From contig JADCRZ010000001.1 of assembly GCA_015069695.1 (NCBI GenBank), forward strand, positions 186,001 through 250,000: DNA of 64,000 bases. The letters are read 5' to 3'. Positions 4,419-29,449 of the stretch are shown here, in pieces. The notes under the pieces are model-generated. The model did not search any database and was not told where the DNA came from. It worked only from the letters and a program-made list of their open reading frames with translations. The DNA comes from Williamsia sp. (GTDB lineage: Bacteria; Bacteroidota; Bacteroidia; Chitinophagales; Chitinophagaceae). The position numbers and the translations under genes are program-made. The first letter of the stretch is position 1. Each line of letters begins with the position of its first letter.

Positions 4419-4429
4419 ACAGAACTTAC

Positions 4430-5266: not shown

Positions 5267-5294
5267 ACAGGCCTCTCAGTAAACAGACCAACAC

Positions 5295-6260: not shown

Positions 6261-6283
6261 CCATTCTTGAAAAGTCTCTGCCC

Positions 6284-6299: not shown

Positions 6300-6335
6300 G
6301 CTTGTACCGGTTATGCCTAAACGATTTACTGCTTT

Positions 6336-7298: not shown

Positions 7299-7299
7299 G

Positions 7300-7941: not shown

Positions 7942-7998
7942 CAGGAAGAAGTTGGACAGGCAGGATGTTGCATGCTTTCATAACGCCAAACAAATATT

Positions 7999-9504: not shown

Positions 9505-9507
9505 CGT

Positions 9508-10512: not shown

Positions 10513-10523
10513 GCAGCTGTTGT

Positions 10524-12390: not shown

Positions 12391-15300
12391 ATGAAAAAAC
12401 TACTCCTCTTTTTCTATGCCCTGCTTTGCATAACAGCCCTGCAGGCGCAGAACCGGCAAATCAGGGGGCGCATCAGCGCCGACAACGGAGAGGCCCTGAG
12501 CGGGGCAACCGTCAGGATAAAAGGCAGCCAACAGGCAGCCTCCACAAACGCCAACGGAGAATATTCCCTGGCTGTACCCGCGGGCAAGGTCGTCCTGGTA
12601 GTTTCTTATGTTGGCTACAAAGAGCAGGAGATCGCGGTGGAGAACCAAGCTGATATTTCGCTCCAGCTGCATTCCAGTGGCAGCGCCATGAATGAAGTGG
12701 TGGTAGTGGGTTATGGAACACAAACCAAGAAAGCTGTCACCGGCTCGGTGGCTTCCGTCAATTACGAAACATTCAAGGACCGTTCTTTCAGCAATGTAAC
12801 GCAGGCCCTGGCCGGACAGGTGGCGGGTGTGAACATCACGCAGGCCCAGGGCGCACCGGGTTCGCTGCCTATCATCCGCATCCGCGGCATCAGCTCTATT
12901 ACAGCCGGCACCAACCCGCTGATGGTGGTAGACGGCGTTCCGCTGGAAGATTTCAACCTGAATATGATCAACCCGCAGGACATTGAATCGGTGGAAGTGC
13001 TGAAAGATGCTTCTTCTGCAGCCATCTATGGTTCCCGCGGTGCGAACGGCGTTATCATCGTTACCACCAAGCTGGGAAAGATCGGCAAGAGCACCGTGAG
13101 TGCAACTTATGAATACGGTACGCAAAAAGTGGTCAGAACGATCGGCATGATGGATGCACAGCAATGGATCCAGTACTATATAGACGCGCACAACAACGCC
13201 TGGGTAGACCTGGGCGGCGGCCGCAAAGCCAGTGATCCAAACAGCGCCCGTCCGGCCAACTATAAAATACCCGAAGATTTTATTGCCAATCCAGGCCTGT
13301 TTGGCAAGGGAACCGACTGGCAGGATGTGATGTTCCGCGTAGCCCCCTCCCAGAATGCACAGGTGTCTGTATCCGGTGGAACCGATAAGACCCGCTTTCT
13401 TTTTTCTGCCGCTTACCTGAACCAGGATGCGGTGCTGGACAGAAATTATTACCACCGCCTCACGCTGCGCTCCAATATCCGCCACAAGGTAAGTGATGCG
13501 GTCACGGTGGGCATGAACCTGGGTATCACCGGCGTGTACGACAGAACCGACGGCACGCAGGGTAAAAGCGATGTGGTGAGCCTGGCCCTGCAAAGCGATC
13601 CCATCTTCCCCGTATACAATGAGAATGGCAACTTAGGTTACCGCGATCCCAATTCAACCTGGTACCGCTTTATCTCTTACGGCGATTTAAACCTCTGGCA
13701 TCCTTATTCGCTGACCCGGTTTATTGATAAGAAAAACAAGACCTTTAACACGCTCGGAACAGGCTTCCTGGAGTATTCCTTTTTGCAGAATTTCCAGTTC
13801 CGCTCCAGCGTGAGTGCCAATTTGAGCAACAACAAAAACGATTCTTACCGGTATAAGAACCAGGGCTATGGCTATTCTTCGCTCCTGAATTCGGCCGCAT
13901 TTACCAACAGTGCTTTTTCGCTGAACTGGCTTACGGAAAACACCCTTACGTACGACAAGCGTTTTGGCAGCCATGCCATCAACATACTGGCAGGCTACAC
14001 GGCGCAAAAGCAACAGGACGAAACCTCCGGCGCCAGCGCAGCCGGCTTTCCTAACGACCTGGTACAAACGCTGAATGCCGGTACAAGCTACAGTGGTGTG
14101 ACTTCTTTTTCAACCGAATGGTCCATGCTTTCTTACCTGGCAAGATTGAACTACAACTACAGCGGCAAGTATTATTTATCGGCCGCCATCCGGCGTGATG
14201 GCAGCTCGCGGTTTGGTGCAGACAGGCGCTGGGGCTATTTCCCTTCCCTCTCGGTGGGCTGGGTAGCATCGGATGAAAGATTCCTGAAAGGCGTGGGCTT
14301 TATCAACTTCCTGAAAGTGCGGGCCAGCTATGGGCAGTCGGGCAACAACCAGATCCCCAACTACGGCTCGGTGAGCTTGCTCGGTGCTTCCAACGCCAAC
14401 TACGCATCCGGTTCTACGCTGCTCAATGGACAAAGCATCACCACCATCTCCAACGATTTATTGCGCTGGGAAAAAACTGACCAGGTCAACCTGGGTTTTG
14501 ATGCAAGACTGTTCAACAACCGGGTCAATCTCTCGCTTGATATTTACAATTCCAGAACCAAAGACATGCTCCTGAATGTGCCGGTGCCCGACATCACCGG
14601 GTTCTCCACGCAGCTGACCAATATCGGCAAGATGCAGAACCGGGGCATCGACCTGACCCTTTCAACCAAAAACGTAGTGGGTCAGTTTAACTGGACTTCC
14701 GACATCAACTTCTCGCTCAACAGGAACAAAGTCCTGCAGCTGGGGCCCGGCAATGCACCCATCATGTATACCGATTACCTGGTGAACGTACGCACGGAAG
14801 TAGGACAGCCTATTTCCAATTTCTACGGGTATGTTTTTGACGGTGTGTTTAAAAACCAGGCAGCCATCGACAAAGCGCCGCACGATGCTTCCACAAGGCC
14901 CGGCGATCCGGTTGTACGGGATGTAAATGGGGATGGCAAGATCACAGAGGCTGATAGAACCATCCTTGGGAATTACCAGCCGGATTTTATGGCCGGCTTA
15001 ACCAATACGTTTTCTTATAAGGGATTGGAGTTGTCTGTTTTCCTGCAGGGATCTTTTGGTGGTGAGATCGTAAACCAGAATGTGCGGTACCTGGGCTGGT
15101 GGAACAACGGCCGCAATATGTATGCAGGGGTGGCCAACCGGTGGCGCTCGGAAACAGAGCCGGGCGATGGCACCCATTTCAGGGCAACCCTGGCCAATAC
15201 CGGTTTACAAAGCCAGTTCTCCAGCTACTGGGTGGAAGATGCTTCTTTTGTACGGGTAAAAAATATCCGCATCTCTTATTCGCTGCCTGTGCGCTGGACA

Positions 15301-15540
15301 AGCAGAACGCCGTTTAAAAATCCACGGGTATACATCAACGCCGAGAACGTGCACCTGTTCAGCAAATACCTGGGCTATGATCCGGAGAATACTACGTACA
15401 ATGCGACCAGCTACTCTGCCGGTAATACCGGACTGGCACCTTCGGGCATCCAGGCTCCCTCCGGTGCATTTGTGGGGGTCGACTATGGCTCGTATCCGGT
15501 ACCCCGCATCATTACTTTCGGGATCAAAACAGATTTGTAA
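12391..15540 (+). CDS. SusC-family TonB-dependent outer-membrane transporter
   Basis: A 1049-residue SusC/RagA protein. Residues 1-19 are a signal peptide, about 24-95 a carboxypeptidase-regulatory-like domain (RGRISADNGEALSGATV), about 105-225 the TonB plug (VVVVGYGTQTKK, ending AIYGSRGANGVIIVTT) and the rest the barrel. It imports oligosaccharides across the outer membrane with the SusD partner that follows 26 bp later. The pair opens a block with a beta-helix enzyme, an oxidoreductase, a symporter and a GH78-like glycosidase. An array of CGAAA repeats 160 bp upstream suggests shared control with the sugar-ABC block. Confidence 0.95.
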   Translation: MKKLLLFFYALLCITALQAQNRQIRGRISADNGEALSGATVRIKGSQQAASTNANGEYSLAVPAGKVVLVVSYVGYKEQEIAVENQADISLQLHSSGSAMNEVVVVGYGTQTKKAVTGSVASVNYETFKDRSFSNVTQALAGQVAGVNITQAQGAPGSLPIIRIRGISSITAGTNPLMVVDGVPLEDFNLNMINPQDIESVEVLKDASSAAIYGSRGANGVIIVTTKLGKIGKSTVSATYEYGTQKVVRTIGMMDAQQWIQYYIDAHNNAWVDLGGGRKASDPNSARPANYKIPEDFIANPGLFGKGTDWQDVMFRVAPSQNAQVSVSGGTDKTRFLFSAAYLNQDAVLDRNYYHRLTLRSNIRHKVSDAVTVGMNLGITGVYDRTDGTQGKSDVVSLALQSDPIFPVYNENGNLGYRDPNSTWYRFISYGDLNLWHPYSLTRFIDKKNKTFNTLGTGFLEYSFLQNFQFRSSVSANLSNNKNDSYRYKNQGYGYSSLLNSAAFTNSAFSLNWLTENTLTYDKRFGSHAINILAGYTAQKQQDETSGASAAGFPNDLVQTLNAGTSYSGVTSFSTEWSMLSYLARLNYNYSGKYYLSAAIRRDGSSRFGADRRWGYFPSLSVGWVASDERFLKGVGFINFLKVRASYGQSGNNQIPNYGSVSLLGASNANYASGSTLLNGQSITTISNDLLRWEKTDQVNLGFDARLFNNRVNLSLDIYNSRTKDMLLNVPVPDITGFSTQLTNIGKMQNRGIDLTLSTKNVVGQFNWTSDINFSLNRNKVLQLGPGNAPIMYTDYLVNVRTEVGQPISNFYGYVFDGVFKNQAAIDKAPHDASTRPGDPVVRDVNGDGKITEADRTILGNYQPDFMAGLTNTFSYKGLELSVFLQGSFGGEIVNQNVRYLGWWNNGRNMYAGVANRWRSETEPGDGTHFRATLANTGLQSQFSSYWVEDASFVRVKNIRISYSLPVRWTSRTPFKNPRVYINAENVHLFSKYLGYDPENTTYNATSYSAGNTGLAPSGIQAPSGAFVGVDYGSYPVPRIITFGIKTDL

Positions 15541-15566
15541 ACCTGCCTTGCACAAAAAAATTACGT

Positions 15567-16982
15567 ATGAAATCTAAACAAGTACTGATCGTTGCCGGAA
15601 TGGTGCTGATGGGTTTTGGCTGCAAAAAGTCTTTCCTGGAACTGGCTCCGCTGTCCAATGCCAATGCCAACAACTTTTATAAGACCACGGCCGATTTTGA
15701 TATAGCTGTTGCTGCCGCTTACAATTCGCTCTATACCATTTACGCGCCGGAAGGCTCTGTGTCCTATGCTTCGGAGCAAATGAGCGACAACGCCATTGTA
15801 TACAATATCTCCGGTATTGAAACAGACAAATGGGCCTTTAAAGATTACAACCTGCGGCCTGCCAATACCATGGTGTACCAGTTCTGGCAGGAGTATTACA
15901 AATCCCTTTTCAACATCAATATCGTACTGGATAAGATTGAAGGCGCTTCTTTGGGTACTGCCTACAAGGAAGGCGTGAAAGCTGAAATGAGCTTTTTGCG
16001 CAGCCTGTATTATTTCAATATGGTCCGTTTGTGGGGTGATGTGCCCCTGGTGCTCACGCCCCTCAATGCAGAAGACAGCTACAAGGTGCTCCGCTCACCC
16101 CAGGCGGATGTGTATGCGCAGATCATCAAGGATCTGCAGTATGCCGTGGATAAGCTACAGGTGAATTCACAAGTTACCCAAAAAGGAAAAGCTACTAAAG
16201 GTGCCGCACAAACGCTGTTGGGCAAAGTGCTGCTGACCCGGGGAGATAAAACAGGTGCAGCGGCTGCTCTGCAGGCAGTTTATACAAGCAGTGAATATGG
16301 CCTGCTGCCTACCTATGCAGCTTTGTGGGGGCCATCGGTAAAAAATACCAAAGAATCTATTTTTGAAATCCAGTACATCGGCGGAACCAGCTCCAATCCT
16401 TACAGCCGCTATTACCAGATCTTTTTTCCCAATACAAATATCTACAGCTTTTACGGCGGCGGCATGAACCAGGTAACGGATGACCTGTGGAATGAATACG
16501 AAGCGAACGATGGCCGGCGCGATCTGTCGGTCGCGACGGGCTACCAGAACGGAAGCACGTTTGTTTCGCAGAAATATCCCAAGAAGTGGACAGATGCTTC
16601 AGCCGTTATTCAAGGAGGCGCCGTGTATGGCAGCAACAATTTTATGGTATTGCGGTATGCAGATTTGTTGCTGATGCTGACAGAAGCAACCGGCGATGCA
16701 AGCTATCTCAACCAGGTGCGCACAAGGGCCGGTATGCCGGCCTGGGGAACAGCAGGCTATCCCACTGCAAAATATCCCACGCTTGACCTGGCGATTGAGC
16801 ATGAAAGAAGGGTAGAGCTGGCACTGGAATTCCACCGCTGGTTTGATTTAAAAAGGACCGGCCGGGCCCTGCCTGTTCTCGCCGCAAAAGGCAAGGCTGT
16901 TACCGAACCAAAACTGCTTTTGCCGATCCCGGAAATTGTACGCAGTCAGAATCCGGTTGTTACCCAAAATACAGGTTACTGA
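15567..16982 (+). CDS. SusD-family glycan-binding lipoprotein
   Basis: A 471-residue RagB/SusD protein. The leader ends in FGC, giving a lipid anchor at Cys19 or so (MKSKQVLIVAGMVLMGFGCK). The alpha-helical TPR-like scaffold is recognisable from AEMSFLRSLYYFNMVRLWGD and the C-terminal HERRVELALEFHRWFDLKR, both standard in the family. It forms the lid of the SusC transporter encoded just upstream. It is somewhat shorter than many SusD proteins (500-580). Ligand not predictable from sequence. Confidence 0.94.
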   Translation: MKSKQVLIVAGMVLMGFGCKKSFLELAPLSNANANNFYKTTADFDIAVAAAYNSLYTIYAPEGSVSYASEQMSDNAIVYNISGIETDKWAFKDYNLRPANTMVYQFWQEYYKSLFNINIVLDKIEGASLGTAYKEGVKAEMSFLRSLYYFNMVRLWGDVPLVLTPLNAEDSYKVLRSPQADVYAQIIKDLQYAVDKLQVNSQVTQKGKATKGAAQTLLGKVLLTRGDKTGAAAALQAVYTSSEYGLLPTYAALWGPSVKNTKESIFEIQYIGGTSSNPYSRYYQIFFPNTNIYSFYGGGMNQVTDDLWNEYEANDGRRDLSVATGYQNGSTFVSQKYPKKWTDASAVIQGGAVYGSNNFMVLRYADLLLMLTEATGDASYLNQVRTRAGMPAWGTAGYPTAKYPTLDLAIEHERRVELALEFHRWFDLKRTGRALPVLAAKGKAVTEPKLLLPIPEIVRSQNPVVTQNTGY

Positions 16983-17054: not shown

Positions 17055-19550
17055 ATGCTAAAAACGGTCGCCCTTCTTTTTTTTCTTTTTATATCTATCT
17101 GTACCCACGCGCAAATCTGGGTGGCAGCTACCGGCTCTGACGGAGCAGAAGGAACCCGGGACAAACCCCTGGCCAGCGTAGCCATGGCCCTGCGCAAAGC
17201 CCGCGAGCTGCGGCGGCTCAACGATCCATCCATTGCCCGGGGCATTCATATCACCGTGAACGAAGGCGTCTACGATTTTACCGAGCCCCTGTTTATCCGG
17301 CCCGAAGATGCAGGAACCGGGGCCAGTCCGACCACCATTGAAGCCGCACCAGGAGCCCATCCGGTTTTCAGCGGCGGCATACCGGTGAAGGGATGGAAAA
17401 AATTAAGCGAACCTGTTGCCTCGCTTCCCAAAAAATCACAAGGCCGGGTCTGGGTAGCAGCAGCACCTACCATCAACGGCGAGCTGCTCCCTTTCCGGCA
17501 GCTATGGGTGAATGGATTGAAGGCCATCCGCGCAAAAGACCGGCAGGGTAATACCATGTCGCGCATTCTTTCCTGGAATAAAAAGGACGAAAGCTGCTGG
17601 ATCCCCAAACCAGCTGTACCTGTTTCATCCGTGGAAGGCATGGAGCTGTTGATCCACCAGTGGTGGGCCATCGCACAGCTGCGCATCAAATCAATGGAAG
17701 TGCGGGGCGACAGTGCCCTGCTCCGTTTTCACCAGCCTGAAAGCCGCATCCAGTCTGAGCATCCCTGGCCTTCCCCCTGGATATCGCCGGAAGGCAATTC
17801 AGCTTTTAATCTTGTAAATGCATTGCAATTTCTAGATAGTCCCGGCGAATGGTACCTGGATCCAAAAACGCGCAGGCTTTATTACTGGCCCCGCGAAGGA
17901 GAAGACATGCAGACGGCAACGGTGATCGCGCCTGCAGCAGAAACCCTGGTAGAAATAAAAGGCACGGCGGAGCAGCCTGTCTCCCATATCCGTTTCAAAG
18001 GCATCAGTTTCCAACACACCAGCTGGCTGCGGCCTTCGCAAAAAGGGCATGTGCCCTTGCAGGCCGGCATGTACATGCTGGATGCCTACAAGCTGCGGCC
18101 ACCCGGCACGCCTGCTAAAAAAGCCCTGGAAAACCAGGCCTGGATCGGCCGCCCGGCAGCAGCCGTGGAAGTATCGTATGCCCGCAACACCTGCTTTGAG
18201 AACTGCCAGTTTATCCATCTTGCTTCTACCGGTCTTGATCTGGAAAAAGGCGCCAAAGAGGATACCGCCAGGGGCAATTTGTTTCAGGACATTGGCGGCT
18301 CTGCCCTGATCGCAGGCGTGTTTTCTGACGAGGCGATGGAAACCCACCTGGCTTACAACCCGGCAGATGAAAGAGAAATTACCGAAGGCCTGCTGATCAG
18401 CAACAATCTGGTCAACAATATCGGCAACGAAGACTGGGGCTGTGTAGGCATCGGTGCGGGTTATGTGCGCAACACCACCATTGCACACAACGATTTGTCT
18501 GAGCTGCCCTATACCGGCATCTCGCTGGGCTGGGGCTGGACAAAAGACAAGAACGTGATGCAGAACAACCAGGTGCTGGCAAACAAGATCTACCGCTATG
18601 CACAGCACATGTATGATGTGGCGGCTATTTATACCCTGGGTGCGCAGCCCAACACGCTGATTGCCGACAACAGGATCGACAGCATTTACAAAGCGCCCTA
18701 TGCCCACCTGCCGCATCATTGGTTTTACCTCTACACCGATGAAGGCTCTTCCTACATCACGGTAAAGAACAACTGGACACCTTCCGAAAAATATTTGCAA
18801 AATGCCAATGGCCCGGGCAACGTATGGGAAAACAATGGACCTGCCGTAGCTGGCAATATCCAGCAAGCCGCCGGACTGGAGGAGGCCTACCGTTCCCTGC
18901 TCAGCAAGAAAAGGATCGTCTATGCAACGCGGCCCATCAACCATGAACTGCCGGTGATCATAGAATTGATTGCGCCTGCAGAACAGTCGCTGGATGTACC
19001 CCGCATAAAAGGGGCGTTTGCTGAAAGCCAGGTTGCTTCTCCCCGGTTCTACCAATGGAAAAATCACCTGGTCTTTTACGGCAAAACCGGTGACGCTGCT
19101 GCGCTGGCCGGCAAGCTGGGCAAGGCCTTGCCCGGTACAGAAGTGAAATTGTACAGCGATGCTTTTTACGAATTCAACCGGACACACTGTGCTGATACAT
19201 CCACCGCAGCGCAGTGGGACAACATCCTGCTTACTGCCGACCTGGTAAGCGATCCAAAGCTGCAGCAGGAATATCTGGCTTATCACAAAACACAGTTTCA
19301 GCAATGGCCGGAAGTGTCGAACGGATTCTGCAACGCGCAGTTCCAGCAATTGCTCGTATACAGGAGTGGCCGGCAGCTGATGCTGGTGATCAGCATACCC
19401 AGGGGTGAAAGCCTCGACAGGCTGAACCCGAAAACAACCGAGAACAACCCGCGGGTGGATGAATGGAACAAGCGCATGGCCCGCTACCAGCAAGGCATTC
19501 AGGGAACAGCAAAGGAGGAAGTATGGGTGTTCCTGAAACCGGTTGAGTAA
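17055..19550 (+). CDS. Secreted right-handed beta-helix protein, GH141-like candidate
   Basis: An 831-residue protein with a signal peptide (residues 1-19, ending THA) and a pectate-lyase-like parallel beta-helix. The start IWVAATGSDGAEGTRDKPLA is typical of large secreted beta-helix enzymes of Bacteroidota, and the helix coils carry ISFQHTSW, ARNTCFENCQF and NNLVNNIGNEDWGCVGIG. Residues 640-831 look like an additional beta-sandwich. The overall plan resembles GH141 (known activities include alpha-L-fucosidase on rhamnogalacturonan II and xylanase), but I cannot confirm the family. It lies in the SusCD block, so it probably acts on the glycan that the pair binds. Confidence 0.6.
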   Translation: MLKTVALLFFLFISICTHAQIWVAATGSDGAEGTRDKPLASVAMALRKARELRRLNDPSIARGIHITVNEGVYDFTEPLFIRPEDAGTGASPTTIEAAPGAHPVFSGGIPVKGWKKLSEPVASLPKKSQGRVWVAAAPTINGELLPFRQLWVNGLKAIRAKDRQGNTMSRILSWNKKDESCWIPKPAVPVSSVEGMELLIHQWWAIAQLRIKSMEVRGDSALLRFHQPESRIQSEHPWPSPWISPEGNSAFNLVNALQFLDSPGEWYLDPKTRRLYYWPREGEDMQTATVIAPAAETLVEIKGTAEQPVSHIRFKGISFQHTSWLRPSQKGHVPLQAGMYMLDAYKLRPPGTPAKKALENQAWIGRPAAAVEVSYARNTCFENCQFIHLASTGLDLEKGAKEDTARGNLFQDIGGSALIAGVFSDEAMETHLAYNPADEREITEGLLISNNLVNNIGNEDWGCVGIGAGYVRNTTIAHNDLSELPYTGISLGWGWTKDKNVMQNNQVLANKIYRYAQHMYDVAAIYTLGAQPNTLIADNRIDSIYKAPYAHLPHHWFYLYTDEGSSYITVKNNWTPSEKYLQNANGPGNVWENNGPAVAGNIQQAAGLEEAYRSLLSKKRIVYATRPINHELPVIIELIAPAEQSLDVPRIKGAFAESQVASPRFYQWKNHLVFYGKTGDAAALAGKLGKALPGTEVKLYSDAFYEFNRTHCADTSTAAQWDNILLTADLVSDPKLQQEYLAYHKTQFQQWPEVSNGFCNAQFQQLLVYRSGRQLMLVISIPRGESLDRLNPKTTENNPRVDEWNKRMARYQQGIQGTAKEEVWVFLKPVE

Positions 19551-19646: not shown

Positions 19647-20717
19647 ATGCATATGCTCCGATTGGGAATCTTGGGTTTGGGTGAAGGAAGAAGTACCATG
19701 TCTGCCGCACTGGCCAGCAAGAAGTATACACTGAAAACCATCTGCGACAGAAACGAAGCGCTGTGCAGGCAGCGGGAAAAAGAATTTGGCTTTCAGGGCC
19801 ACACAACCGATTACCAGCACATGCTGGATGATACAACTATTGATGTGATCGCCATCTACACACCCGACCACCTGCATGCCGAACACGCAAAGCAAGCCCT
19901 GCTGCATGGCAAGCACGTCGTATGCACCAAACCCTTTGTAGACGATCTGGCGCAGGCAAAAGAACTTATTCAGCTACAACAGCAAACCGGTAAAAAAGTG
20001 TTTGTCGGACAAAGCTCCCGCTTTTTTGAACCGGCCCGCCGGCAGCGCAAGGACTTTGAAGAAGGCCTGATCGGTGAACTGATCACCGTTGAAAGCCATT
20101 ACCACGCAGACCATCGCTGGTTCCTGGAAAAACCCTGGGCCCTGGAAGGATCGTTCAAATGGCTGTATGGCGGATTGAGCCATCCGGCCGATTTTATCCG
20201 CTGGTACCTGCCCGGTATCGAAGAAGTGATGGGCTATGGCATGATCAGTTCCAATGGCCTCAAAGCCGGTCTGAAAAACCACGACACCATGCACTTTATC
20301 TTCCGGGCAGCCGACGGCCGCATCGCGCGGGTGAGCGGCGCTTACACAGGCCCTACCCAGCCCACCAGCCGCGACAGTGGCATGAGCTGCATCCTGCGGG
20401 GCACCGAAGGTGCCAGCCAGGCCGATTACCACGAACTGCGCTATGCCGTTACAGACAGAAGTGGTGAAGAGCGGGTGATCCACTGGGGTGATGCTACCTT
20501 GAAATATTATTTCCGGTTTGAAGGACAAAGCCACCATGCCGGCGAGTACCAAAACTACCTGGACTATTTCGCCGACAGCATTGAGGGGGATTTTACGGCT
20601 TACCCCGATCTGGCCGAAGGCATCGGCACCGTAGCTCTGTTACAGGCCATGGACCGTTCGCTGCAAACAGGCGGTCCGGTAAAGATCCAGGACATCTTAA
20701 ACGAGCACGGCCTATGA
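19647..20717 (+). CDS. Gfo/Idh/MocA-family oxidoreductase
   Basis: A 356-residue cytoplasmic NAD(P)-dependent oxidoreductase. The N-terminal Rossmann domain has GILGLGEGRS near residue 7, and the family Lys is Lys95 in CTKPF. The C-terminal alpha/beta domain carries GSFKWLYGGLSHPADFIRWY, with the His and Asp that usually shape the active site. It overlaps the symporter gene by 4 bp (ATGA type), so the two are translationally coupled. In the oxidative apiose route the first step is made by a Gfo/Idh-family D-apiose dehydrogenase; with the RuBisCO-like protein 3.8 kb downstream this is a reasonable but untested guess. Confidence 0.85.
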   Translation: MHMLRLGILGLGEGRSTMSAALASKKYTLKTICDRNEALCRQREKEFGFQGHTTDYQHMLDDTTIDVIAIYTPDHLHAEHAKQALLHGKHVVCTKPFVDDLAQAKELIQLQQQTGKKVFVGQSSRFFEPARRQRKDFEEGLIGELITVESHYHADHRWFLEKPWALEGSFKWLYGGLSHPADFIRWYLPGIEEVMGYGMISSNGLKAGLKNHDTMHFIFRAADGRIARVSGAYTGPTQPTSRDSGMSCILRGTEGASQADYHELRYAVTDRSGEERVIHWGDATLKYYFRFEGQSHHAGEYQNYLDYFADSIEGDFTAYPDLAEGIGTVALLQAMDRSLQTGGPVKIQDILNEHGL

Positions 20718-22297
20718 ACCCGATCTATGAAAAGCTTACCAGGCTTGATTTTGCCGTCGTGGCAGTTTACCTGGTTATCCTGCTGGTGATCGGGTATATA
20801 GCCAGCTTCCGGCAAAAGAAAAAGGACGAAACACTTTTTCTTGCCAGCCATTCCCTCAACTGGTACAACATCGGCTTTAACATGTGGGGCACCAATGTGG
20901 GCCCTTCTTCCCTGCTGGCTTTTGCCAGCATTGGTTATGCGACCGGTATTGTAGCGGGAAACTTTGAATGGTATGCCTTTGTGTTCCTGCTGCTGCTGGC
21001 CACTGTGTTTGCGCCGCGGTACATCGCCAGCAAAGTGGCTACCATGCCGGAGTACATGGGCAAACGCTATGGCGACAGCACCCGCAACATCCTGGCCTGG
21101 TATGCCCTGATAAAGATCCTGGTGAGCTGGCTTTCGCTGGGTTTGTTCAGCGGGGGGGTGCTGGTACGGCAGATCCTGGGCATACCCATGTGGCAGTCGG
21201 TGATTGTGCTGGTTTTATTTGCCGGTGTGTTTACGTTTGCCGGCGGCTTAAAAGCCATCGCCAAAGTAAATGTGTTCCAAATGCTGCTGCTGATCGCCGT
21301 ATCACTTACGCTGACCTGCCTGGGTTTGCAAAAGGTGGGTGGATTATCGGCCCTGTATCACCAGGTGCCATCCCAGTTCTGGAACCTGGTGCGCCCTTCC
21401 AATGATAAAGCCTATCCCTGGCAGGCCCTCCTGCTGGGATACCCGGTAGCAGCCGTGGCTTTTTTCTGTACAGACCAGGCCATGGTGCAAAGTGTGCTGG
21501 GCGCAAAAAATTTAGAGCAGGGACAGCTGGGCGTGAACTTTATCGGCTGGCTGAAAGTGCTCGCACTTCCCCTGTTTATCCTGCCGGGCATCCTGTGTTA
21601 TGCCCTCTTTCCCCATCTCGAAAAATCTGATCTTGCCTACATGACAATGGTCACCAGTCTTTTTCCTTCCGGCATGAACGGTTTGGTGATTTGTGTCCTG
21701 ATTGCCGTGCTGGTGGGCACCATCGGCTCTTCTCTCAATGCACTAAGCACTGTATTCACGACCGATGTATATGTAAAGAAGATCAACCCGTCCGCTACTA
21801 CGCAGCAACAGATCAAGGTGGGAAGGATCACCATTGCCGTAGGCTGTTTGTTTGCTGTGCTGATGGCCATTGCCATCGATAACATCCGCGGACAAAACCT
21901 GTTCAATATCTTCCAGGCCGTGCTGGGCTTCCTGGCACCTTCGCTTTCGGTGGTTTTTTTGCTGAGCGTATTCTGGAAGCGCACCACCCAAAAAGCAGTG
22001 AATGCTGTACTGAGCTTTGGATCAGCCTTTAGCCTGGGGGTAGGCATTTTATATCTCTGGATATTACCTGCCGACAAGTACCCGCAATGGCCGCATTTTT
22101 TGCTGCTTTCGTTTTACATATTTCTCCTTTTGCTGGCAGCTGCCGTCCTGATCTCGCTCACGGATACCCGGCCCCAGCACAGCAATGTAGAAACGGCCGC
22201 TTTGCCGGTCACCAGCAAAAAGGTAAAATGGTTGTTTGCCCTGCTGGGCGTAGTGATTGTTTTGTTGTATATCATTTTCAACGGACATAAAGCATGA
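20714..22297 (+). CDS. SSS-family sodium:solute symporter
   Basis: A 527-residue inner-membrane protein with about 13-14 hydrophobic segments, the normal plan of the SSS (SGLT-like) family. FLASHSLNWYNIGFNMWGTN and PEYMGKRYGDSTRNILAWY are family motifs, as is SSLNALSTVFTTDVY in the second half. It would import a sugar or sugar acid with Na+. It overlaps the oxidoreductase upstream and the glycosidase downstream by 4 bp each, so all three are made together: surface hydrolysis, uptake, oxidation. Confidence 0.93.
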   Translation: MNPIYEKLTRLDFAVVAVYLVILLVIGYIASFRQKKKDETLFLASHSLNWYNIGFNMWGTNVGPSSLLAFASIGYATGIVAGNFEWYAFVFLLLLATVFAPRYIASKVATMPEYMGKRYGDSTRNILAWYALIKILVSWLSLGLFSGGVLVRQILGIPMWQSVIVLVLFAGVFTFAGGLKAIAKVNVFQMLLLIAVSLTLTCLGLQKVGGLSALYHQVPSQFWNLVRPSNDKAYPWQALLLGYPVAAVAFFCTDQAMVQSVLGAKNLEQGQLGVNFIGWLKVLALPLFILPGILCYALFPHLEKSDLAYMTMVTSLFPSGMNGLVICVLIAVLVGTIGSSLNALSTVFTTDVYVKKINPSATTQQQIKVGRITIAVGCLFAVLMAIAIDNIRGQNLFNIFQAVLGFLAPSLSVVFLLSVFWKRTTQKAVNAVLSFGSAFSLGVGILYLWILPADKYPQWPHFLLLSFYIFLLLLAAAVLISLTDTRPQHSNVETAALPVTSKKVKWLFALLGVVIVLLYIIFNGHKA

Positions 22298-24480
22298 GAA
22301 AAAAAAGAGTTACGAAGCCCGTGGTACACCGGCTTATGTTGTTTGGTATCCTGCTTTGTTTGTGGTTTCAAAGCTCGGCACAACAAGCCACCTGGATATG
22401 GTATCCCGGTGATTATGAGATCTGGCTGAGCAACAACATGCAAAACCGCCGCACCGACCGGGGCGCTTTCTTTCCTGTGTTCTGGAAAGTAGACAGCCAT
22501 TACCCGCTGATGGATTTTCACAAGGAGTATATGCTGGCCCAGCCTGAAACTGTTTCGATCTGGGCCGAAGGTTTGTACAATGTAAAGATCGACGGTGCGC
22601 TTGTAGAAGGCACGCCAACTTCTGTCACCATGCCGGCCGGCAAACACAAGCTGAACATAAAAGTGTTTAACCAGGCCGCTGTTCCTGCCGTATATGTAAA
22701 GGGAAAAACGGTTGTTTCTGACGCATCCTGGCTGGTCACTTTTGAGGACAAGGAATGGATTGATGAAACCGGTAAAACTTCCGATATATCAGCCACCAAA
22801 TGGCTCTCTGCCGGTAGCTGGAATTTTGATTCGCCGTTGAAACGGCCTTCCCGGTTTACACTTCCCGTTAAGCCGCAACGGGCAGCATCGATAAAAAAAG
22901 CAGGCAACACCACCCTTGTTGATTTCGGCCGGGAAACCTTTGGCTTTGTAAAACTGCATGGCCTCCGCGGCAAAGGCGCTATCACATTGTACTACGGCGA
23001 ATCAAGGGAAGAAGCCTTGTCGAAGGAAGGTGCCATCGCATTCGACAAGGTCCAGTCTAAAAGCACGGCTAAAAGGGACACGACCATGCCGCTGTCAAAA
23101 GCATTCAGGTATGTGAACGCAGTGGCTGAACCTGCTGCCCAATTTGATTCTATTTCGATGTTGTATGAATATGCTGATGTAAAAGAAAGAGGCAGTTTCC
23201 GCTGTGCGGATGAGGAGCTCAACAAGATCTACGATGTAGCAACCTACACGCTTCATCTGAACACCCGGGAATTTTTTATCGATGGCATCAAGCGCGACCG
23301 CTGGGTCTGGAGCGGCGATGCTTACCAGAGTTACCTGATGAACTATTACCTGTTCTTTGACTCACCCACGGTAGAGCGGACCATGAAAGCCCTGCGCGGC
23401 AAAGACCCGGTAACCGGCCATATCAACACCATCATGGATTATACCTTTTACTGGTTCCTGGGCATCTATGATTATTATCTCTACACCGGCGATACCAGTT
23501 TCATCCAGCAATACTATCCGCGCATGCAAAGCATGATCGACTATGTGCTGGGCCGGCGCAATGAAGACGGTTTATTGCAGGGCCTGCCCGGCGACTGGAT
23601 CTTTATCGACTGGGCAGAAGGCCTGAGTAAAAAGGGAGAGGTAAGTTTTGAGCAGCTTCTCTTTGCCCGCAGCCTGGAAACCATGGCCCTTTGCGCCGGC
23701 ATTGCAAACGACGCACAGGGCAAAGGGACCTATGAATCACTTGCCCGCGACCTGAAGAAAAAGCTTTTTTCGCTGTACTGGAACCCGGAGAAACATGCGC
23801 TTGTGCACAGCCGCGTAGACGGCAAGCAAACCCCGAACGTAACCCGCTACAGCAATATGTTTGGCATCTTCTTCAACTACTTCAGCGAACAGCAGAAGAG
23901 GGAAGTAAAGCAATCCGTGCTGCTCAACGACAGCATTCAAAAGATAACGACGCCGTATATGCGCTTTTATGAACTGGAAGCGCTTTGTGCCATGGGTGAG
24001 CAGGAATACGTGCTCAAGCAAATGAAAGACTATTGGGGCGGCATGCTGAAGCTGGGCGCCACCACCTTCTGGGAAGAATACAATCCCCAAAAATCAGGCG
24101 CCGAGCACTACGCCATGTATGGGCGAACCTTTGGTAAAAGCCTGTGCCATGCCTGGGGCGCCAGTCCGATTTACCTGTTGGGCAAATACTACCTGGGTGT
24201 GCAGCCAACTGCGCCCGGCTATGCAGCTTACACCATAGAGCCCAGGCTGGGCGGACTGCCCTGGATGCAAGGTGCCGTACCCACGCCTTCCGGCAATATT
24301 GAGGTATACTGCAGCACAAAGGAAATCAAGGTCAAGGGAGCGGGCGGCAGGGGAACCCTGTTGTTTAAAAGCAGTTCCAAGCCCTTATGCAATGAGGGTG
24401 TGATCGAAGAAAAGGGAAACAACGCGTACAGCTTAACCATTGAAAAAGGAAAGGAGTACAAAGTAGATTATACACTTTAG
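22294..24480 (+). CDS. Secreted GH78-like six-hairpin glycosidase (alpha-L-rhamnosidase family)
   Basis: A 728-residue protein with a signal peptide (about residues 11-29). The N-terminal half holds beta-sandwich modules, the middle an (alpha/alpha)6 barrel and the end a small beta-sandwich of GH78 type. DGIKRDRWVWSGD (residues 330-342) occupies the place of the family motif DxxxRDERxxWxGD, and FWEEY (592-596) that of the second catalytic Glu. By eye the usual acid Glu after RD is replaced by Arg336 with one residue missing, so activity or specificity may differ. Alpha-L-rhamnosidases release rhamnose from pectin, rhamnogalacturonan or plant glycosides. Confidence 0.78.
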   Translation: MRKKRVTKPVVHRLMLFGILLCLWFQSSAQQATWIWYPGDYEIWLSNNMQNRRTDRGAFFPVFWKVDSHYPLMDFHKEYMLAQPETVSIWAEGLYNVKIDGALVEGTPTSVTMPAGKHKLNIKVFNQAAVPAVYVKGKTVVSDASWLVTFEDKEWIDETGKTSDISATKWLSAGSWNFDSPLKRPSRFTLPVKPQRAASIKKAGNTTLVDFGRETFGFVKLHGLRGKGAITLYYGESREEALSKEGAIAFDKVQSKSTAKRDTTMPLSKAFRYVNAVAEPAAQFDSISMLYEYADVKERGSFRCADEELNKIYDVATYTLHLNTREFFIDGIKRDRWVWSGDAYQSYLMNYYLFFDSPTVERTMKALRGKDPVTGHINTIMDYTFYWFLGIYDYYLYTGDTSFIQQYYPRMQSMIDYVLGRRNEDGLLQGLPGDWIFIDWAEGLSKKGEVSFEQLLFARSLETMALCAGIANDAQGKGTYESLARDLKKKLFSLYWNPEKHALVHSRVDGKQTPNVTRYSNMFGIFFNYFSEQQKREVKQSVLLNDSIQKITTPYMRFYELEALCAMGEQEYVLKQMKDYWGGMLKLGATTFWEEYNPQKSGAEHYAMYGRTFGKSLCHAWGASPIYLLGKYYLGVQPTAPGYAAYTIEPRLGGLPWMQGAVPTPSGNIEVYCSTKEIKVKGAGGRGTLLFKSSSKPLCNEGVIEEKGNNAYSLTIEKGKEYKVDYTL

Positions 24481-24530: not shown

Positions 24531-25850
24531 ATGGCAATCTTATACAACGATGCTGCGATGGCTGATGGGCCCGGTGGTTTACACACAGAAGGACAGGGAG
24601 AACCAGCCCCGCGGGTCACGGCAACTTACCTGATCGAAACCCCTTTGGCGCCGGAAAAGGCAGCCGAAGTACTGGCCGGCGAGCAATCATCCGGAACCTT
24701 TGTAGCCGTGCCCGGCGAAACGGCTGAATTAAAAGCACGTTTTGCAGCGAGGGTAGAAGGGGTAGAAACCCTGGACTGGTTTGAGCAGCCTTCCCTGCCC
24801 AGTGAAAAGCTGGCGCCCGGTAAGTACCAGCAGGCCCTTGTGCGGGTTTCCTGGTCGGTGGAGAATTTCGGCTTTAACCTGCCGGTGCTTGTTTCCACCC
24901 TGCAGGGCAACCTCTATGAGCTCCGGCAATTCACCGGGTTAAAGCTGATGGACATCGATTTCCCGGCTGCTTATGTAGCGCATTTTAAGGGATCAAAATT
25001 TGGCATCGAAGGTTCGCGGGCACTAACGGGTGTGTATAACCGCCCGCTCATAGGCACCATCATCAAGCCAAGCATCGGACTGACGCCGGAGCAAACAGCG
25101 GAGATGGTGCAAACCATGGGAGAAGCGGGGATTGATTTTGTAAAGGATGATGAACTGCTTTCTTCATCTGCCAACTCCCCCTTTGAAAAACGGGTGGAAG
25201 AAGTCATGAACAGGATCAACCGGCTGGCAGATAAAACGGGCAAAAAGATCATGTATGCCTTTAATGTCAGCGGCGAAACAGATGAGATGCTCTATCGCTG
25301 CGAGACCATCGTAAAAGCAGGAGGCACCTGTGCCATGATCAGTCTCAACAGCGTAGGTCTTTCTGCAACAAGGAAAGTATGCGAAACCGCGCCGCTGGCC
25401 ATTCACGGCCACCGCAACGGATGGGGCATGATGACGAGGCATCCCCTGTTAGGGATCGATTTTCCGGCTTACCAGAAATTGTGGCGGCTGGCCGGTGTGG
25501 ACCAGATCCATGTAAACGGCATTGCAAACAAATTCTGGGAAAGCGATGATTCGGTGGTTCGTTCTATTGAAGCTTGCCTGCGGCCTATGGCAAACGGGCG
25601 CACCGTGCTGCCGGTGGTATCATCAGGGCAATGGGGCGGACAAGCATTTGAAACCTGGCGGCGTACCGCTACGGTGGACCTGTTGTACATGGCCGGAGGC
25701 GGCATTATGGCCCACCCGATGGGCGCGTCCGCTGGTGTAACGGCTTTGCAGCAGGCCTGGAAGGCAGCAGTGGATGGAATGCAATTAAACGAAGCGGTCA
25801 AAGAGTATCCCGAGTTTGCAAAATCAGTAGAGAAGTTTGGGAAAGGATAA
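24531..25850 (+). CDS. RuBisCO-like protein (form IV), candidate 3-oxo-isoapionate-4-phosphate decarboxylase
   Basis: A 439-residue member of the RuBisCO large-subunit superfamily. By motif alignment it keeps the carbamylated Lys and metal ligands (Lys205, Asp207, Glu208 in VKDDE), Lys179 in IIKPS, His294-Arg295, His327 and loop-6 Lys334. It differs at the second Lys of the KPK motif (Ser181) and after Ser365-Gly366 (Gln367 for Gly). This pattern fits form IV proteins that perform enolate chemistry on other phosphosugars, not CO2 fixation; no small subunit or phosphoribulokinase is present. A DUF1537 kinase follows, as in oxidative apiose pathways where such enzymes (OiaX, OiaT) act on 3-oxo-isoapionate-4-phosphate. 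Family confident, substrate inferred. Confidence 0.88.
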   Translation: MAILYNDAAMADGPGGLHTEGQGEPAPRVTATYLIETPLAPEKAAEVLAGEQSSGTFVAVPGETAELKARFAARVEGVETLDWFEQPSLPSEKLAPGKYQQALVRVSWSVENFGFNLPVLVSTLQGNLYELRQFTGLKLMDIDFPAAYVAHFKGSKFGIEGSRALTGVYNRPLIGTIIKPSIGLTPEQTAEMVQTMGEAGIDFVKDDELLSSSANSPFEKRVEEVMNRINRLADKTGKKIMYAFNVSGETDEMLYRCETIVKAGGTCAMISLNSVGLSATRKVCETAPLAIHGHRNGWGMMTRHPLLGIDFPAYQKLWRLAGVDQIHVNGIANKFWESDDSVVRSIEACLRPMANGRTVLPVVSSGQWGGQAFETWRRTATVDLLYMAGGGIMAHPMGASAGVTALQQAWKAAVDGMQLNEAVKEYPEFAKSVEKFGKG

Positions 25851-25994: not shown

Positions 25995-27311
25995 GTGATT
26001 GAACAAAAAAACATACTGCTTGCATTTTATGGCGATGATGTAACCGGCAGCACCGACGCGCTGGAGTTTATCTGCCGGGCAGGGGCCAGGGCGCTCTTGT
26101 TTATGGAGCCGCCGACCAGCGAAACCTTGCAAGCATACCCCGACCTGCAGGCTTACGGCATTGCGGGTTATACAAGGGCTTTGCCGCCCCGGCTGATGGA
26201 GCAGGAACTGATGCCTGCCTTCCAGTCCATCAAGGCAAGCGGCGCAAAGCACATCCACTACAAAGTATGCTCCACATTCGATTCCTCCCCGCAAACCGGC
26301 AGCATCGGCCGGGCGATCGATTGCGGGGCGGCTGTGTTCAACAATCAATTTGTACCTGTACTGGGCGGCATGCCGGCGCTGGGGCGGTATTGCCTGTTTG
26401 GAAATTTGTTTGCCCGCATGGGCATTGGCAGCAAAGGAACCATTTACCGCCTGGACCGGCATCCCTCTATGAGCAAACATCCGGTTACCCCGGCAGATGA
26501 AAGCGACCTGCGCGTGCACCTGGGAAAACAAACGGCCAAAAAGATTGGCCTGATAGACATCATCACTATGCAACAGCATCCTTCCGGATGGAACAAGGAG
26601 ATCCGGGAAGGGGAGGACGTGATCCTGCTGGATGTGCTGGAAGAAAAACACCTGCTCGCCATCGGCGCCTGGCTGGAAGCGCAATGCCGGGAGGAGGCGC
26701 CCCTGTTTTCAGTAGGCTCATCCGGAATTGAAATGGCACTGGGGCTGCACTGGAATGCCCAAGGCTTACTCACACCGCGTCACAACTGGCCGGCCTTGGA
26801 GCGGGCTGCGCCCTTGTTGGTCATATCGGGCAGCTGTTCCCCTATAACGGGCGCTCAACTCGCGTATGCAAAAGAAAACGGGTTCAGGGAACTGGTACTG
26901 GATGCGGAAAAGATTTGCAACGGCGAAGAGATTGAAAAAAGACTGATCGACCTGGCGGTCAACTACTTGCAGCAGCAGGACGACCTGGTGGTGCATACCG
27001 GAACAAAGGGCGGAGACAACCTGCCTTCCGCCTTACTGGGAAAAGTGCTTGGCCTGCTGGCAAAAGAAATAGTAGAAAGAACAAGGATCAAGCGGGTGGT
27101 GGTGGCAGGCGGCGATACCAGCAGTTATGCAACAAGGGCCATGGAGATAGAAGCCCTGGAAATCAGCGCGCCGCTGGTAAGCGGAGCACCCCTTTGTAAA
27201 GCCTACTCCAAAAGGGGCAGCATCAACGGATTGGAGATAAACCTCAAAGGCGGACAGGTAGGCGCAAAAGATTATTTCCTGCTGTTAAAGCAGGGCAGGA
27301 TGAGCGAGTAA
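25995..27311 (+). CDS. Four-carbon acid sugar kinase family protein (DUF1537), OiaK-like candidate
   Basis: A 438-residue two-domain kinase. The N-terminal sugar-binding domain begins with FYGDDVTGSTDALEF, and the nucleotide-binding domain has SGS (residues 278-280, VISGSCSPITGAQL) and GGD (372-374, VAGGDTSSYA). The start is a GTG at 25995; there is no in-frame ATG before the conserved N-terminal motif. The family phosphorylates C4 acid sugars (threonate, erythronate) and 3-oxo-isoapionate. No PdxA-type dehydrogenase, the usual partner for threonate, is nearby, while a RuBisCO-like protein is adjacent, which favours the 3-oxo-isoapionate type. Its product would be the substrate of the RuBisCO-like protein. 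Confidence 0.87.
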   Translation: MIEQKNILLAFYGDDVTGSTDALEFICRAGARALLFMEPPTSETLQAYPDLQAYGIAGYTRALPPRLMEQELMPAFQSIKASGAKHIHYKVCSTFDSSPQTGSIGRAIDCGAAVFNNQFVPVLGGMPALGRYCLFGNLFARMGIGSKGTIYRLDRHPSMSKHPVTPADESDLRVHLGKQTAKKIGLIDIITMQQHPSGWNKEIREGEDVILLDVLEEKHLLAIGAWLEAQCREEAPLFSVGSSGIEMALGLHWNAQGLLTPRHNWPALERAAPLLVISGSCSPITGAQLAYAKENGFRELVLDAEKICNGEEIEKRLIDLAVNYLQQQDDLVVHTGTKGGDNLPSALLGKVLGLLAKEIVERTRIKRVVVAGGDTSSYATRAMEIEALEISAPLVSGAPLCKAYSKRGSINGLEINLKGGQVGAKDYFLLLKQGRMSE

Positions 27312-27499: not shown

Positions 27500-28159
27500 A
27501 TGGCACAAAAAACATTGGGATTGATTCACACATCGGCTACGCTGGTGCCTGTATTCCAGCAGCTTTGCCAGCAGCACCTGCCGCATGTGCAAACCTTCAA
27601 CATCGTCGACGACAGCCTGATCAAGACCGTGATACGCTGTGGCGAACTAAGACCCGACACGGCCCGGCGCGTTGTGAACTATGCTGCTTCGGCTGAAGAT
27701 GCCGGCGCAGATTTTATCTTGTTTACCTGCTCTTCTATCGGTGCTGCCGTGGAAACAGCGGCCACGCTGAGCCAGGTTCCGGTACTGCGCGTTGACCAGC
27801 CCATGGCCGACAAGGCCGTGCAAACCGGCAGCCGGATCGGTGTGATCGCCACGCTGCCCACCACGCTCCGGCCCACAACGGATCTGGTAAAGCGGAGAGC
27901 CCTTGTTGCAGGCAAGGAAGTAGACATTGTTTCAAGCCTCTGCGAAGGTGCTTTTGACAAGCTCATGAGCGGCGATGCAGCCGCACACGACGCCATGGTT
28001 GCTGCCGCCCTCAAAGAACTTTCTTTACAGGTAGACGTGATCGTACTGGCGCAGGCTTCCATGGCCAGGGTGGTTGATACCCTGCCTGAAGCAAACAAGC
28101 GGGTGCCTATCCTTGCCAGTCCGGGCATTGCGATCGAATATTTAGCCACCTTATTATAA
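27500..28159 (+). CDS. Asp/Glu/hydantoin racemase-fold protein with one catalytic Cys
   Basis: A 219-residue cytoplasmic protein of the aspartate/glutamate/hydantoin racemase superfamily, normal length. The first catalytic Cys is present as Cys77 in LFTCSSIG. At the second site, where hydantoin racemases have LGCAGM, this protein has LAQASM, so Gln185 replaces the Cys. Two-base racemisation is then unlikely; a one-base isomerase, decarboxylase-like or lyase reaction (as in the maleate isomerase/arylmalonate decarboxylase relatives) is possible. It follows the RuBisCO-like protein and the DUF1537 kinase and precedes a transporter by 18 bp, so it probably belongs to the same acid-sugar route. 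Confidence 0.8.
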   Translation: MAQKTLGLIHTSATLVPVFQQLCQQHLPHVQTFNIVDDSLIKTVIRCGELRPDTARRVVNYAASAEDAGADFILFTCSSIGAAVETAATLSQVPVLRVDQPMADKAVQTGSRIGVIATLPTTLRPTTDLVKRRALVAGKEVDIVSSLCEGAFDKLMSGDAAAHDAMVAAALKELSLQVDVIVLAQASMARVVDTLPEANKRVPILASPGIAIEYLATLL

Positions 28160-28177: not shown

Positions 28178-29449
28178 ATGAAAAAAATCGCACAAGCTTG
28201 TCTGGTGCTAAGCGCCCTGGGGGCCGCTGCTTTGGTAGCCGGACTCTTATTGCAGCAAACAAGTTTATGGCAGGTGGCGGCTGTTGCATGCGTGGTAAGC
28301 TTTGCCATTGGCATGGGCGCCATCCCCGGTTTAAAAACCTACCGGTACACCGCCTGGATCATAGCTGCCGTTGTAACGGCCATGGTCTATCCCGGTGCTT
28401 TTCAGCATTGGGGCAGCTTTGACCTGCGCAATAAATGGGTGATCCTCATTGTGATCCAGGTGGTCATGTTTGGCATGGGCATTCAAATGAGCCTGAAGGA
28501 TTTTTCCGGCATCGCCACCACCGGCAAGGGCGTAGCGGTGGGATTGGCATGCCATTTTTCGGTGATGCCCCTGATGGGCCTTTTGCTGACCCGCATCTTT
28601 CATTTCGAGCCGGAAATTGCAGCAGGCATTGTTTTGATCGGTTCCTGCTCCAGCGGACTGGCTTCAAACGTCATGGTGTATATCGCCAGGGCCAACCTGG
28701 TTTTATCGGTGGTGGTAACTGCGCTTTCCACGCTGGCTGCTCCTTTCCTAACACCGCTGCTGATGAAGCTGCTGGCCGGCACCCTCATCAGGGTTCAGTT
28801 CCTGAATATGATGATGGAGATCATCAAGATCGTGCTGGTGCCCATCGGCGCTGCGCTGTTGCACGATTATTTGAAAGGGGCTTCGGCCAGGGGATGGAAA
28901 GTGGTGAGGATTGTATTGATCCTCAGCATCCTTTGGCTGCTGGCACTGCCACTGGGGTGGTGGCATTCTCTTGAAACAGCCATCCATTCTCCGGCCCTGT
29001 TGGAATCATTGGGCATCCTGGGTTTTCTGGCCGGTGCTTTCGTCGTCGGCGTATTGTATCATGCACTTACAAAAAAGATTGGACAGCTGGACAGCTGGAT
29101 GCCTTACTTATCCATGTTCGGCATTATTTATTTCACGGCCGTAACGACAGCTGCCGGAAGGGAGAACCTGCTGAAGGTAGGCTTCCTGCTCTTTATCTGT
29201 TCTGTCGTGCACAACACAGCCGGTTATTTTTTCGGCTACTGGCTTAGCCGCCTGGCCGGTTTGGACAAACCCTCCGCAAGAACGATCGCCTTCGAAGTGG
29301 GCCTGCAAAACGGCGGCATGGCATCCGGCCTGGCCGGCACCATGGGCAAGCTCGGAACAGTAGGCCTGCCCGCAGCCGTATTCAGTCCCTGGATGAACAT
29401 CAGCGGCAGCCTGCTGGCGAATTACTGGAGAAGGAAGGCTGACTCATGA
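28178..29449 (+). CDS. BASS-family (bile acid:sodium symporter-like) transporter
   Basis: A 423-residue inner-membrane protein with about ten to eleven hydrophobic segments. FGMGIQMSLKDF in the third segment, GSCSSGLASNVMVYIARANL in the middle and AFEVGLQNGGMASGLA near the end are typical of the BASS/SBF family. Family members move organic anions such as bile acids, pyruvate or 2-keto acids with Na+. With the acid-sugar enzymes directly upstream, uptake of a sugar acid or export of a product acid is plausible. Its end overlaps the convergent monooxygenase gene by 6 bp. The N-terminal 60 residues hold two extra hydrophobic segments. Confidence 0.88.
   Translation: MKKIAQACLVLSALGAAALVAGLLLQQTSLWQVAAVACVVSFAIGMGAIPGLKTYRYTAWIIAAVVTAMVYPGAFQHWGSFDLRNKWVILIVIQVVMFGMGIQMSLKDFSGIATTGKGVAVGLACHFSVMPLMGLLLTRIFHFEPEIAAGIVLIGSCSSGLASNVMVYIARANLVLSVVVTALSTLAAPFLTPLLMKLLAGTLIRVQFLNMMMEIIKIVLVPIGAALLHDYLKGASARGWKVVRIVLILSILWLLALPLGWWHSLETAIHSPALLESLGILGFLAGAFVVGVLYHALTKKIGQLDSWMPYLSMFGIIYFTAVTTAAGRENLLKVGFLLFICSVVHNTAGYFFGYWLSRLAGLDKPSARTIAFEVGLQNGGMASGLAGTMGKLGTVGLPAAVFSPWMNISGSLLANYWRRKADS

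Follow-up and report, generated by a model that had tools for sequence, protein, structure and literature searches.

The window, by which we mean the whole 64,000-nucleotide stretch of DNA that was analysed, carries a gene for a RuBisCO-like protein (RLP) followed by three genes that make up a cassette with it. The features that concern us here, all on the plus strand, are as follows:

2192–12044, plus strand: a separate operon (DeoR, Fuc-isomerase-like, split transketolase, RbsB/DUF2291/RbsA/RbsC, FGGY kinase), assigned by homology to E. coli SE15
12391–16982, plus strand: SusC-like and SusD-like pair (ORFs 12391–15540 and 15567–16982) at the head of the locus, read from translation and position
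17055–19550, plus strand: BT_1002-like GH141 glycosidase fused to an L-rhamnose-mutarotase domain (GH141_M and rhaM domains; 5mqp)
19647–20717, plus strand: Gfo/Idh/MocA oxidoreductase (PF01408)
20714–22297, plus strand: SSS-family sodium:solute symporter (PF00474; TIGR00813 above cut-off)
22294–24480, plus strand: GH78-like alpha-rhamnosidase (3cih; Pfam Bac_rhamnosid6H)
24531–25850, plus strand: RLP, 439 amino acids, clade A (PF00016, NF042437, 3nwr, active-site counts, AlphaFold model)
25995–27311, plus strand: four-carbon acid sugar kinase family protein (DUF1537), OiaK-like (NF042436, OtnK model, PF07005/PF17042)
27500–28159, plus strand: Asp/Glu-racemase-fold protein (PF01177; fold match)
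28178–29449, plus strand: BASS (bile acid:sodium symporter family) transporter (PF01758; TIGR00841 below cut-off)

The best PDB match of the GH141 protein, whose rhaM domain occupies the C terminus (residues 729–829), is 5mqp ('Glycoside hydrolase BT_1002', 708 bits), whilst that of the GH78-like protein is 3cih (982 bits, the next structure scoring 163). We take 3cih to be BT_1001, and BT_1002 and BT_1001 to be enzymes of Bacteroides thetaiotaomicron that act on rhamnogalacturonan-II (RG-II). The SSS symporter gene overlaps both of its neighbours by 4 bases, and the GH78-like gene is probably in the same operon as the RLP gene. Long antisense ORFs of up to 553 amino acids lie opposite likely genes at 17832–19493 (minus strand) and other spots; they show no gene signs and could mislead an ORF caller. 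Further along the window, positions 43596–46976 encode a 1126-amino-acid protein with an N-terminal caspase-like part (Peptidase_C14) and a C-terminal esterase-like alpha/beta-hydrolase part (DUF7379/DUF676).

The separate operon at 2192–12044 resembles the D-apiose cluster of E. coli SE15 in its transketolase halves, transporter and kinase (AptA 50%, AptB 40% and AplK 39% identity), although the E. coli cluster has two SDR genes and lacks the Fuc-isomerase-like gene found in the window. To judge from this homology it probably encodes a non-oxidative D-apiose pathway, and it stands outside the RLP cassette. E. coli strains carrying the D-apiose cluster grew on apiose, SE15 not being one of the strains in that test (PMC13001218).

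The RLP reading frame is open throughout its 439 codons. Its product matches the Pfam families PF00016 (218 bits against a cut-off of 30.1) and PF02788, and is the sole PF00016 match in its own genome (7.66 Mb, 99.3% complete). The nearest curated family is OiaX, the 3-oxo-isoapionate-4-phosphate decarboxylase, yet the score against its model (NF042437) is 497.8 bits, below the cut-off of 700, compared with 760 for an annotated OiaX; a Rhizobium OiaX is 49% identical to the window RLP. Scores against the RuBisCO models are also below cut-off (TIGR03326, 239.9 of 497; PRK04208, 231.1 of 438). The AlphaFold model (mean pLDDT 87.8) shows a RuBisCO fold, and Foldseek aligns it best with the Burkholderia fungorum RLP 3nwr (TM 0.86/0.93), followed by RuBisCOs, which are at most 33% identical in the Foldseek alignments listed, and other RLPs. 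This same protein is the nearest solved structure by sequence (E=7.5e-119), yet it falls outside clade A in the tree described below, and its title names no function. The first 23 residues of the RLP are modelled with low confidence and the matches of relatives start near residue 28, so translation may begin further downstream than 24531. A role in methionine salvage, which the original prediction had held up as the contrary case, can be set aside: the MtnW model TIGR03332 gives 149 of 514 bits, far below cut-off, and the RLP keeps Arg295, His327 and Lys334, all of which are changed in the MtnW compared.

We compared 109 distinct RLP loci, taken from a genome scan (the best 80 of 559 confirmed stretches), a family sample and plasmid records. 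RLPs and accompanying traits were scored across loci by tblastn, and counts of neighbour clusters come from an approximate gene caller. Clade A was defined by at least 59% identity to the window RLP, giving 72 loci and leaving 37 others, among them L077 (58.6% identity), which is without the cassette and which the tree nevertheless puts inside the clade. Among the best 80 of 559 stretches, the family sample and the plasmids, clade A is found mainly in Bacteroidota, Verrucomicrobiota and Planctomycetota, going by the titles of the records. Two related RLP matches (L078 and L089), on metagenome-derived contigs, have one in-frame stop each. A phylogeny, as proposed alongside the original prediction, was built by a quick method with SH-aLRT support only, from 77 of 119 alignment rows after thinning at 80% identity; the window RLP lies in clade A, which is a single clade (SH-aLRT 100), with OiaX nearby (SH-aLRT 87). 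The RLPs linked to ApnO spread over deeper branches.

The catalytic residues were read from a MAFFT alignment of 119 sequences, comprising 106 of the 109 loci (two fragments were left out and L033 was replaced by its OiaX protein) and 13 other sequences; form I (Cupriavidus) and form III (2cwx) RuBisCO, MtnW and other RLPs are included. In what we take to be spinach RuBisCO numbering, followed by that of the RLP, the following are kept: E60=E51, T65=T56, N123=N127, T173=T176, K175=K179, K201=K205, D203=D207, E204=E208, H294=H294, R295=R295, H327=H327, K334=K334, S379=S364, G381=G366 and G403/G404=G390/G391. Four listed positions are changed: W66 (F57), K177 (S181), L335 (F335) and G380 (S365). 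The fold and nearly all catalytic residues are common to the window RLP and true RuBisCO of forms I–III, with Trp66 to Phe, Lys177 to Ser and Gly380 to Ser as the differences.

The eight residues that had been aligned by eye with the active site, namely Lys179, Lys205, Asp207, Glu208, His294, Arg295, His327 and Lys334 of the RLP, do fall at the RuBisCO positions when aligned with forms I and III, and Ser181 does replace the second Lys of the KPK motif (Lys177). The reading of Gln367 as a substitute for a phosphate-loop glycine was mistaken, however: Gln367 aligns with residue 382, which is Ile in form I and Leu in form III, and so the phosphate-loop Gly381 is present as Gly366, the glycine replaced being Gly380, now Ser365. 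MtnW and the Chlorobium RLP bear out the remark that many RLPs have lost more, but the remark overstates how rare such conservation is. All 70 aligned clade-A members are identical at the kept and the changed sites, so the catalytic set is no peculiarity of the window RLP; by alignment, the earlier observation is real but ordinary for the family to which this protein belongs.

In the 18 aligned rows of ApnO-linked RLPs the majority residue is that of the window RLP at every listed site, with at most two rows differing at some. The OiaX-type sequences (four annotated OiaX and one unannotated relative) have instead Gly at Asn123 and Gln at His327 in five of five, together with Asp at Glu60 and Ala at Lys177 (again five of five) and Gly or Cys at Ser379. 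The window RLP, with Asn127 and His327 at the first two of these sites, departs from this pattern. As judged from the alignment, retention of the carboxylation-side residues is the rule amongst probable OiaT-type enzymes rather than an oddity of the window RLP, and it would fit a reaction with recarboxylation, hydration and cleavage, not decarboxylation alone. Twenty-two positions separate clade A from the ApnO-linked RLPs. None is a first-shell catalytic residue, and the nearest to the active site is the loop-6 neighbour Trp336, which is also Trp in 5 of 20 ApnO-linked rows; the substrate pocket therefore cannot be read from them.

OiaT was reportedly characterised by Carter et al. in 2018 as 3-oxo-isoapionate-4-phosphate transcarboxylase/hydrolase. 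It converts 3-oxo-isoapionate-4-phosphate to 3-phosphoglycerate and glycolate. Its reactions are named in PMC6302742. Like the window RLP, OiaT belongs to the RuBisCO superfamily and has an OiaK-type kinase as partner, and its catalytic residues would be the same if, by elimination, we equate it with the ApnO-linked RLPs and go by their majority residues. These RLPs are 51–58% identical to the window RLP, and we propose that their substrate differs. The enolate chemistry of carboxylase type suggested by the original prediction, with a phosphorylated 3-keto acid as substrate, is well supported by homology, with OiaX as nearest family, an OiaK-like neighbour and OiaT-type residues, and indeed to be expected from it. 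The implied substrate, 3-oxo-isoapionate-4-phosphate, finds no such support in the context, given that ApnO and ApnL have no match in the genome and that the window holds a separate operon with an apiose-type transketolase, and it is probably not that of the window RLP.

The new part is the genomic context. Where more than 4.5 kb of downstream sequence is present, clade-A loci carry the kinase in 61 of 62 cases, the racemase-fold gene in 61 of 62 and the BASS gene in 59 of 62, with neither ApnO nor ApnL in any of the 62. The corresponding figures for the other RLP loci are 26/29 for the kinase, 3/29 for the racemase-fold gene, 0/29 for BASS, 17/29 for ApnO and 5/29 for ApnL. Clade A thus has a cassette (RLP, OiaK-like kinase, racemase-fold protein, BASS transporter) without apionate genes, and none of its loci holds a member of the ApnO, ApnL or ApsD-like clusters; the Gfo/Idh/MocA oxidoreductase of the window and the ApsD-like enzymes of ApnO loci fall into separate clusters (8 and 19). 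The ApnO C-terminal domain was found in none of 16 clade-A genomes but in six of six ApnO-type genomes or records used as positive control. Searches of the window's own genome for the ApnO domain and ApnL gave no match, as did the same searches in 14 control genomes. We reject an apionate route for the window RLP on these searches, the one for ApnO having been repeated with a positive control in the clade-A genomes above. L039 and L077 have a clade-A RLP with no kinase or racemase-fold gene nearby. In three clade-A loci from Phycisphaerae (L069, L070 and L076) the RLP, kinase and racemase-fold gene are present and BASS was not found by the search; the contig of L070 ends shortly past the racemase-fold gene.

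The kinase scores 402.6 bits against the OiaK model NF042436 (cut-off 700) and 183 against the OtnK model (cut-off 350), and so reaches neither threshold. The racemase-fold protein resembles glutamate and aspartate racemases (TM about 0.7). Cys77, at one of the two catalytic Cys positions, is present in 70 of 70 cluster members, whilst the second site reads Ala184-Gln-Ala-Ser (Ala184, Gln185 and Ser187 in 70 of 70, Ala186 in 69 of 70). A classical two-Cys racemase is thus improbable, and the product of 27500–28159 is probably, from these residues, something else. The single Cys counts against an isomerase role, as does the family to which the protein belongs, whose members work on centres adjacent to a carboxylate and are not known to act at C1/C2 of aldoses. 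The gene (E<=1e-60) was found in 12 of 298 genomes of the order, all 12 of which carry the RLP. On a Neorhizobium plasmid (L163:6971–9102) a relative adjoins a kinase annotated as OtnK (3-oxo-tetronate), a pairing that would suit an isomerase supplying DUF1537 kinases; the neighbours of its relatives in two further rhizobia are unrelated genes, for oxidoreductases and ABC transporters.

A link to a particular sugar comes from GH127 glycosidases. Within about 10 kb on each side of the RLP, a GH127 gene of one cluster occurs in 35 of 72 clade-A loci and is the commonest glycosidase neighbour. Of the 64 clade-A loci for which upstream sequence exceeds 3 kb, 22 have it as the immediate 5' neighbour of the RLP gene in the same orientation, more than any other gene, with GH78 next at 8. 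Two members of the cluster, a clade-A protein and a Chloroflexota one, have 5mqo as their best PDB match at 823 and 775 bits (next GH127, 394 and 407), the other 35 having been placed by similarity to L045 alone. We take 5mqo to be BT1003. BT1003 (GH127) is described in two papers as the hydrolase that acts on aceric acid (3-C-carboxy-5-deoxy-L-xylose) in RG-II (PMC10850190, PMC5698469).

The same link is seen among whole genomes. In the sampled family, this GH127 (E<=1e-150) is present in 26 of 27 genomes with the RLP against 24 of 267 without it (Fisher 2.5e-22), or by genus in 16/16 against 8/85, both tests ignoring the relatedness of genomes; one row (G036, E=9.7e-4) was left out of the RLP genomes. 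GH28, used as a control, shows a weaker enrichment (7 of 27 against 11 of 267). The one RLP genome without GH127 is G293, an assembly of 230 contigs and 91% completeness. There is no 5mqo-like GH127 near the window RLP itself. The copy in its own genome (C1) is on another contig (L149:5978–10896), in a row with a BT_1020-like protein and an exported protein that resembles xylose isomerase; relatives of the latter are encoded upstream of the RLP gene at 8 of 109 loci, making it another isomerase candidate.

The association is not uniform. Thirty-seven of the 72 clade-A loci have no such GH127 gene in the stretch examined (nine of these stretches being under 12 kb), among them L040 and L047, where only the end of one is seen. 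Outside clade A, two Chloroflexota loci (L093 and L104) combine a 5mqo-like GH127 gene with the racemase-fold gene, kinase and RLP. As they group with the ApnO-linked L105 in the tree, they represent at least one further origin but not surely two, and the ApnO domain is absent from the genome of L093 and present elsewhere in that of L104. Two genes that read as ABC-sugar permeases lie between the cassette genes of L104, where BASS is absent, which would fit a role for BASS in uptake. Three cases count against the link between the RLP and GH127 or aceric acid. L106 and a Croceibacterium plasmid (L031/L160) have the RLP, kinase and racemase-fold gene with no 5mqo-like GH127 in the stretches seen, and the ApnO domain is absent from the L106 genome and the L031 plasmid; in an acidobacterial locus (L114, RLP at 10001) the racemase-fold gene and ApnO occur together. 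A GH127-like gene at L031 is not 5mqo-like (65 bits) and one at L106 falls, by cluster placement, outside the 5mqo-like cluster; both were rejected as further cases. On the Croceibacterium plasmid the racemase-fold gene (L160:7995–9922) is beside an MFS transporter and far from the RLP–kinase pair of L031.

Starting from the protein family, its catalytic residues, the cassette, the lack of an ApnO domain in the genomes searched and the linkage to 5mqo-like GH127, we propose that the RLP is an OiaT-type enzyme recruited for catabolism of aceric acid, the rare branched acidic sugar found in the RG-II of plant cell walls. The window's homologues of BT_1002 and 3cih, and the two Chloroflexota loci with GH127, racemase-fold gene, kinase and RLP, point the same way. 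This is a reading of sequence and gene neighbourhood, and we give it a probability of about 0.5. Aceric acid would be freed from RG-II by the GH127 hydrolase and imported, if we have the direction of transport right, by the BASS transporter. An isomerase, most likely the racemase-fold protein, would then convert the aldose to the ketose HOCH2-CO-C(OH)(COO-)-CHOH-CH3, which the OiaK-like kinase would phosphorylate at C1. Finally the RLP, with carbamylated Lys205 and Mg2+, would move the carboxylate via an enediolate, and the product would be hydrated and its C–C bond cut in RuBisCO-like fashion, giving presumably 3-phosphoglycerate and lactate.

3-Oxo-isoapionate is HOCH2-CO-C(OH)(COO-)-CH2OH. 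Its 4-phosphate and the phosphate of the aceric ketose would be close homologues, the ketose phosphate having CHOH-CH3 where the other has CH2OH. The part on which kinase and RLP react would be identical and oxidation unnecessary, which would explain why ApnO, ApnL and ApsD are absent. Isomerisation by the racemase-fold protein is the weakest step of the model. The stronger version, in which four genes suffice for complete catabolism (Na+-coupled BASS, racemase-fold aldose–ketose isomerase, DUF1537 kinase, and an RLP that would run decarboxylation, recarboxylation, hydration and cleavage to yield 3-phosphoglycerate and L-lactate), is offered more tentatively and somewhat against the odds.

Apiose might be the source after all, if 3-oxo-isoapionate were made without ApnO, for example by oxidation of apulose, which the Fuc-isomerase-like enzyme would produce, and the RLP were an ordinary OiaT acting on 3-oxo-isoapionate-4-phosphate. 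The catalytic residues, being those of the majority of ApnO-linked RLPs, would suit this, as would the apiose-type isomerase/transketolase operon of the window, which also occurs near several clade-A RLPs. A Fuc-isomerase-like gene is moreover found in 18 of 27 RLP genomes against 6 of 267 others, and apiose is likewise described as an RG-II sugar (PMC6302742). Nine of the 27 RLP genomes nevertheless lack that gene (E<=1e-120), whilst 26 have GH127, and amongst the neighbour clusters of RLP loci those of ApnO, ApnL and ApsD-like enzymes have no clade-A member. No oxidoreductase is encoded by the four cassette genes, and the route would duplicate a complete non-oxidative one. We regard apiose as an unlikely source.

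The substrate could also be that of the aceric acid scheme with an RLP that, like OiaX, only decarboxylates it, releasing CO2 and leaving a 5-deoxypentulose-1-phosphate to be taken on by an aldolase. Beta-keto acids of this type lose CO2 readily, OiaX is the best NCBIfam model (498 bits), and it lies near clade A in the tree. Its cut-off of 700 is nonetheless missed by the RLP, Asn123 and His327, lost in all five OiaX-type proteins, are kept in all 70 of clade A, and no aldolase is seen among the labelled neighbour clusters, many clusters being unlabelled; we regard decarboxylation alone as distinctly improbable. We would say much the same of another branched or 3-oxo sugar acid, from RG-II or other plant or algal glycans, with GH127 reflecting a shared pectin-degrading life style. 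Some clade-A genomes come from planctomycetes or, to judge by their names, probably from the sea, and have little to connect them with RG-II; the GH families around RLP loci vary; GH28 is enriched too, if more weakly; and Croceibacterium and L106 have the RLP, kinase and racemase-fold gene with no 5mqo-like GH127 in the stretches seen. Against this, the association with GH127 is far above that of the GH28 control, and GH127 is often the direct neighbour and turns up again at two loci from outside the clade.

RG-II is present across all plants (PMC12168206). Among the matches listed in open-licence PMC full text, no description of aceric acid catabolism past hydrolysis was found. If aceric acid is the substrate, the gap in the fate of the released sugar would be closed, and the RuBisCO superfamily would gain one more substrate, of which few are known for RuBisCO-like proteins. 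The four-gene pathway, if correct, would hold as well for the Chloroflexota loci that share its core genes, and the window RLP would be a natural enzyme that may perform nearly the whole RuBisCO reaction on a substrate from outside the Calvin cycle.
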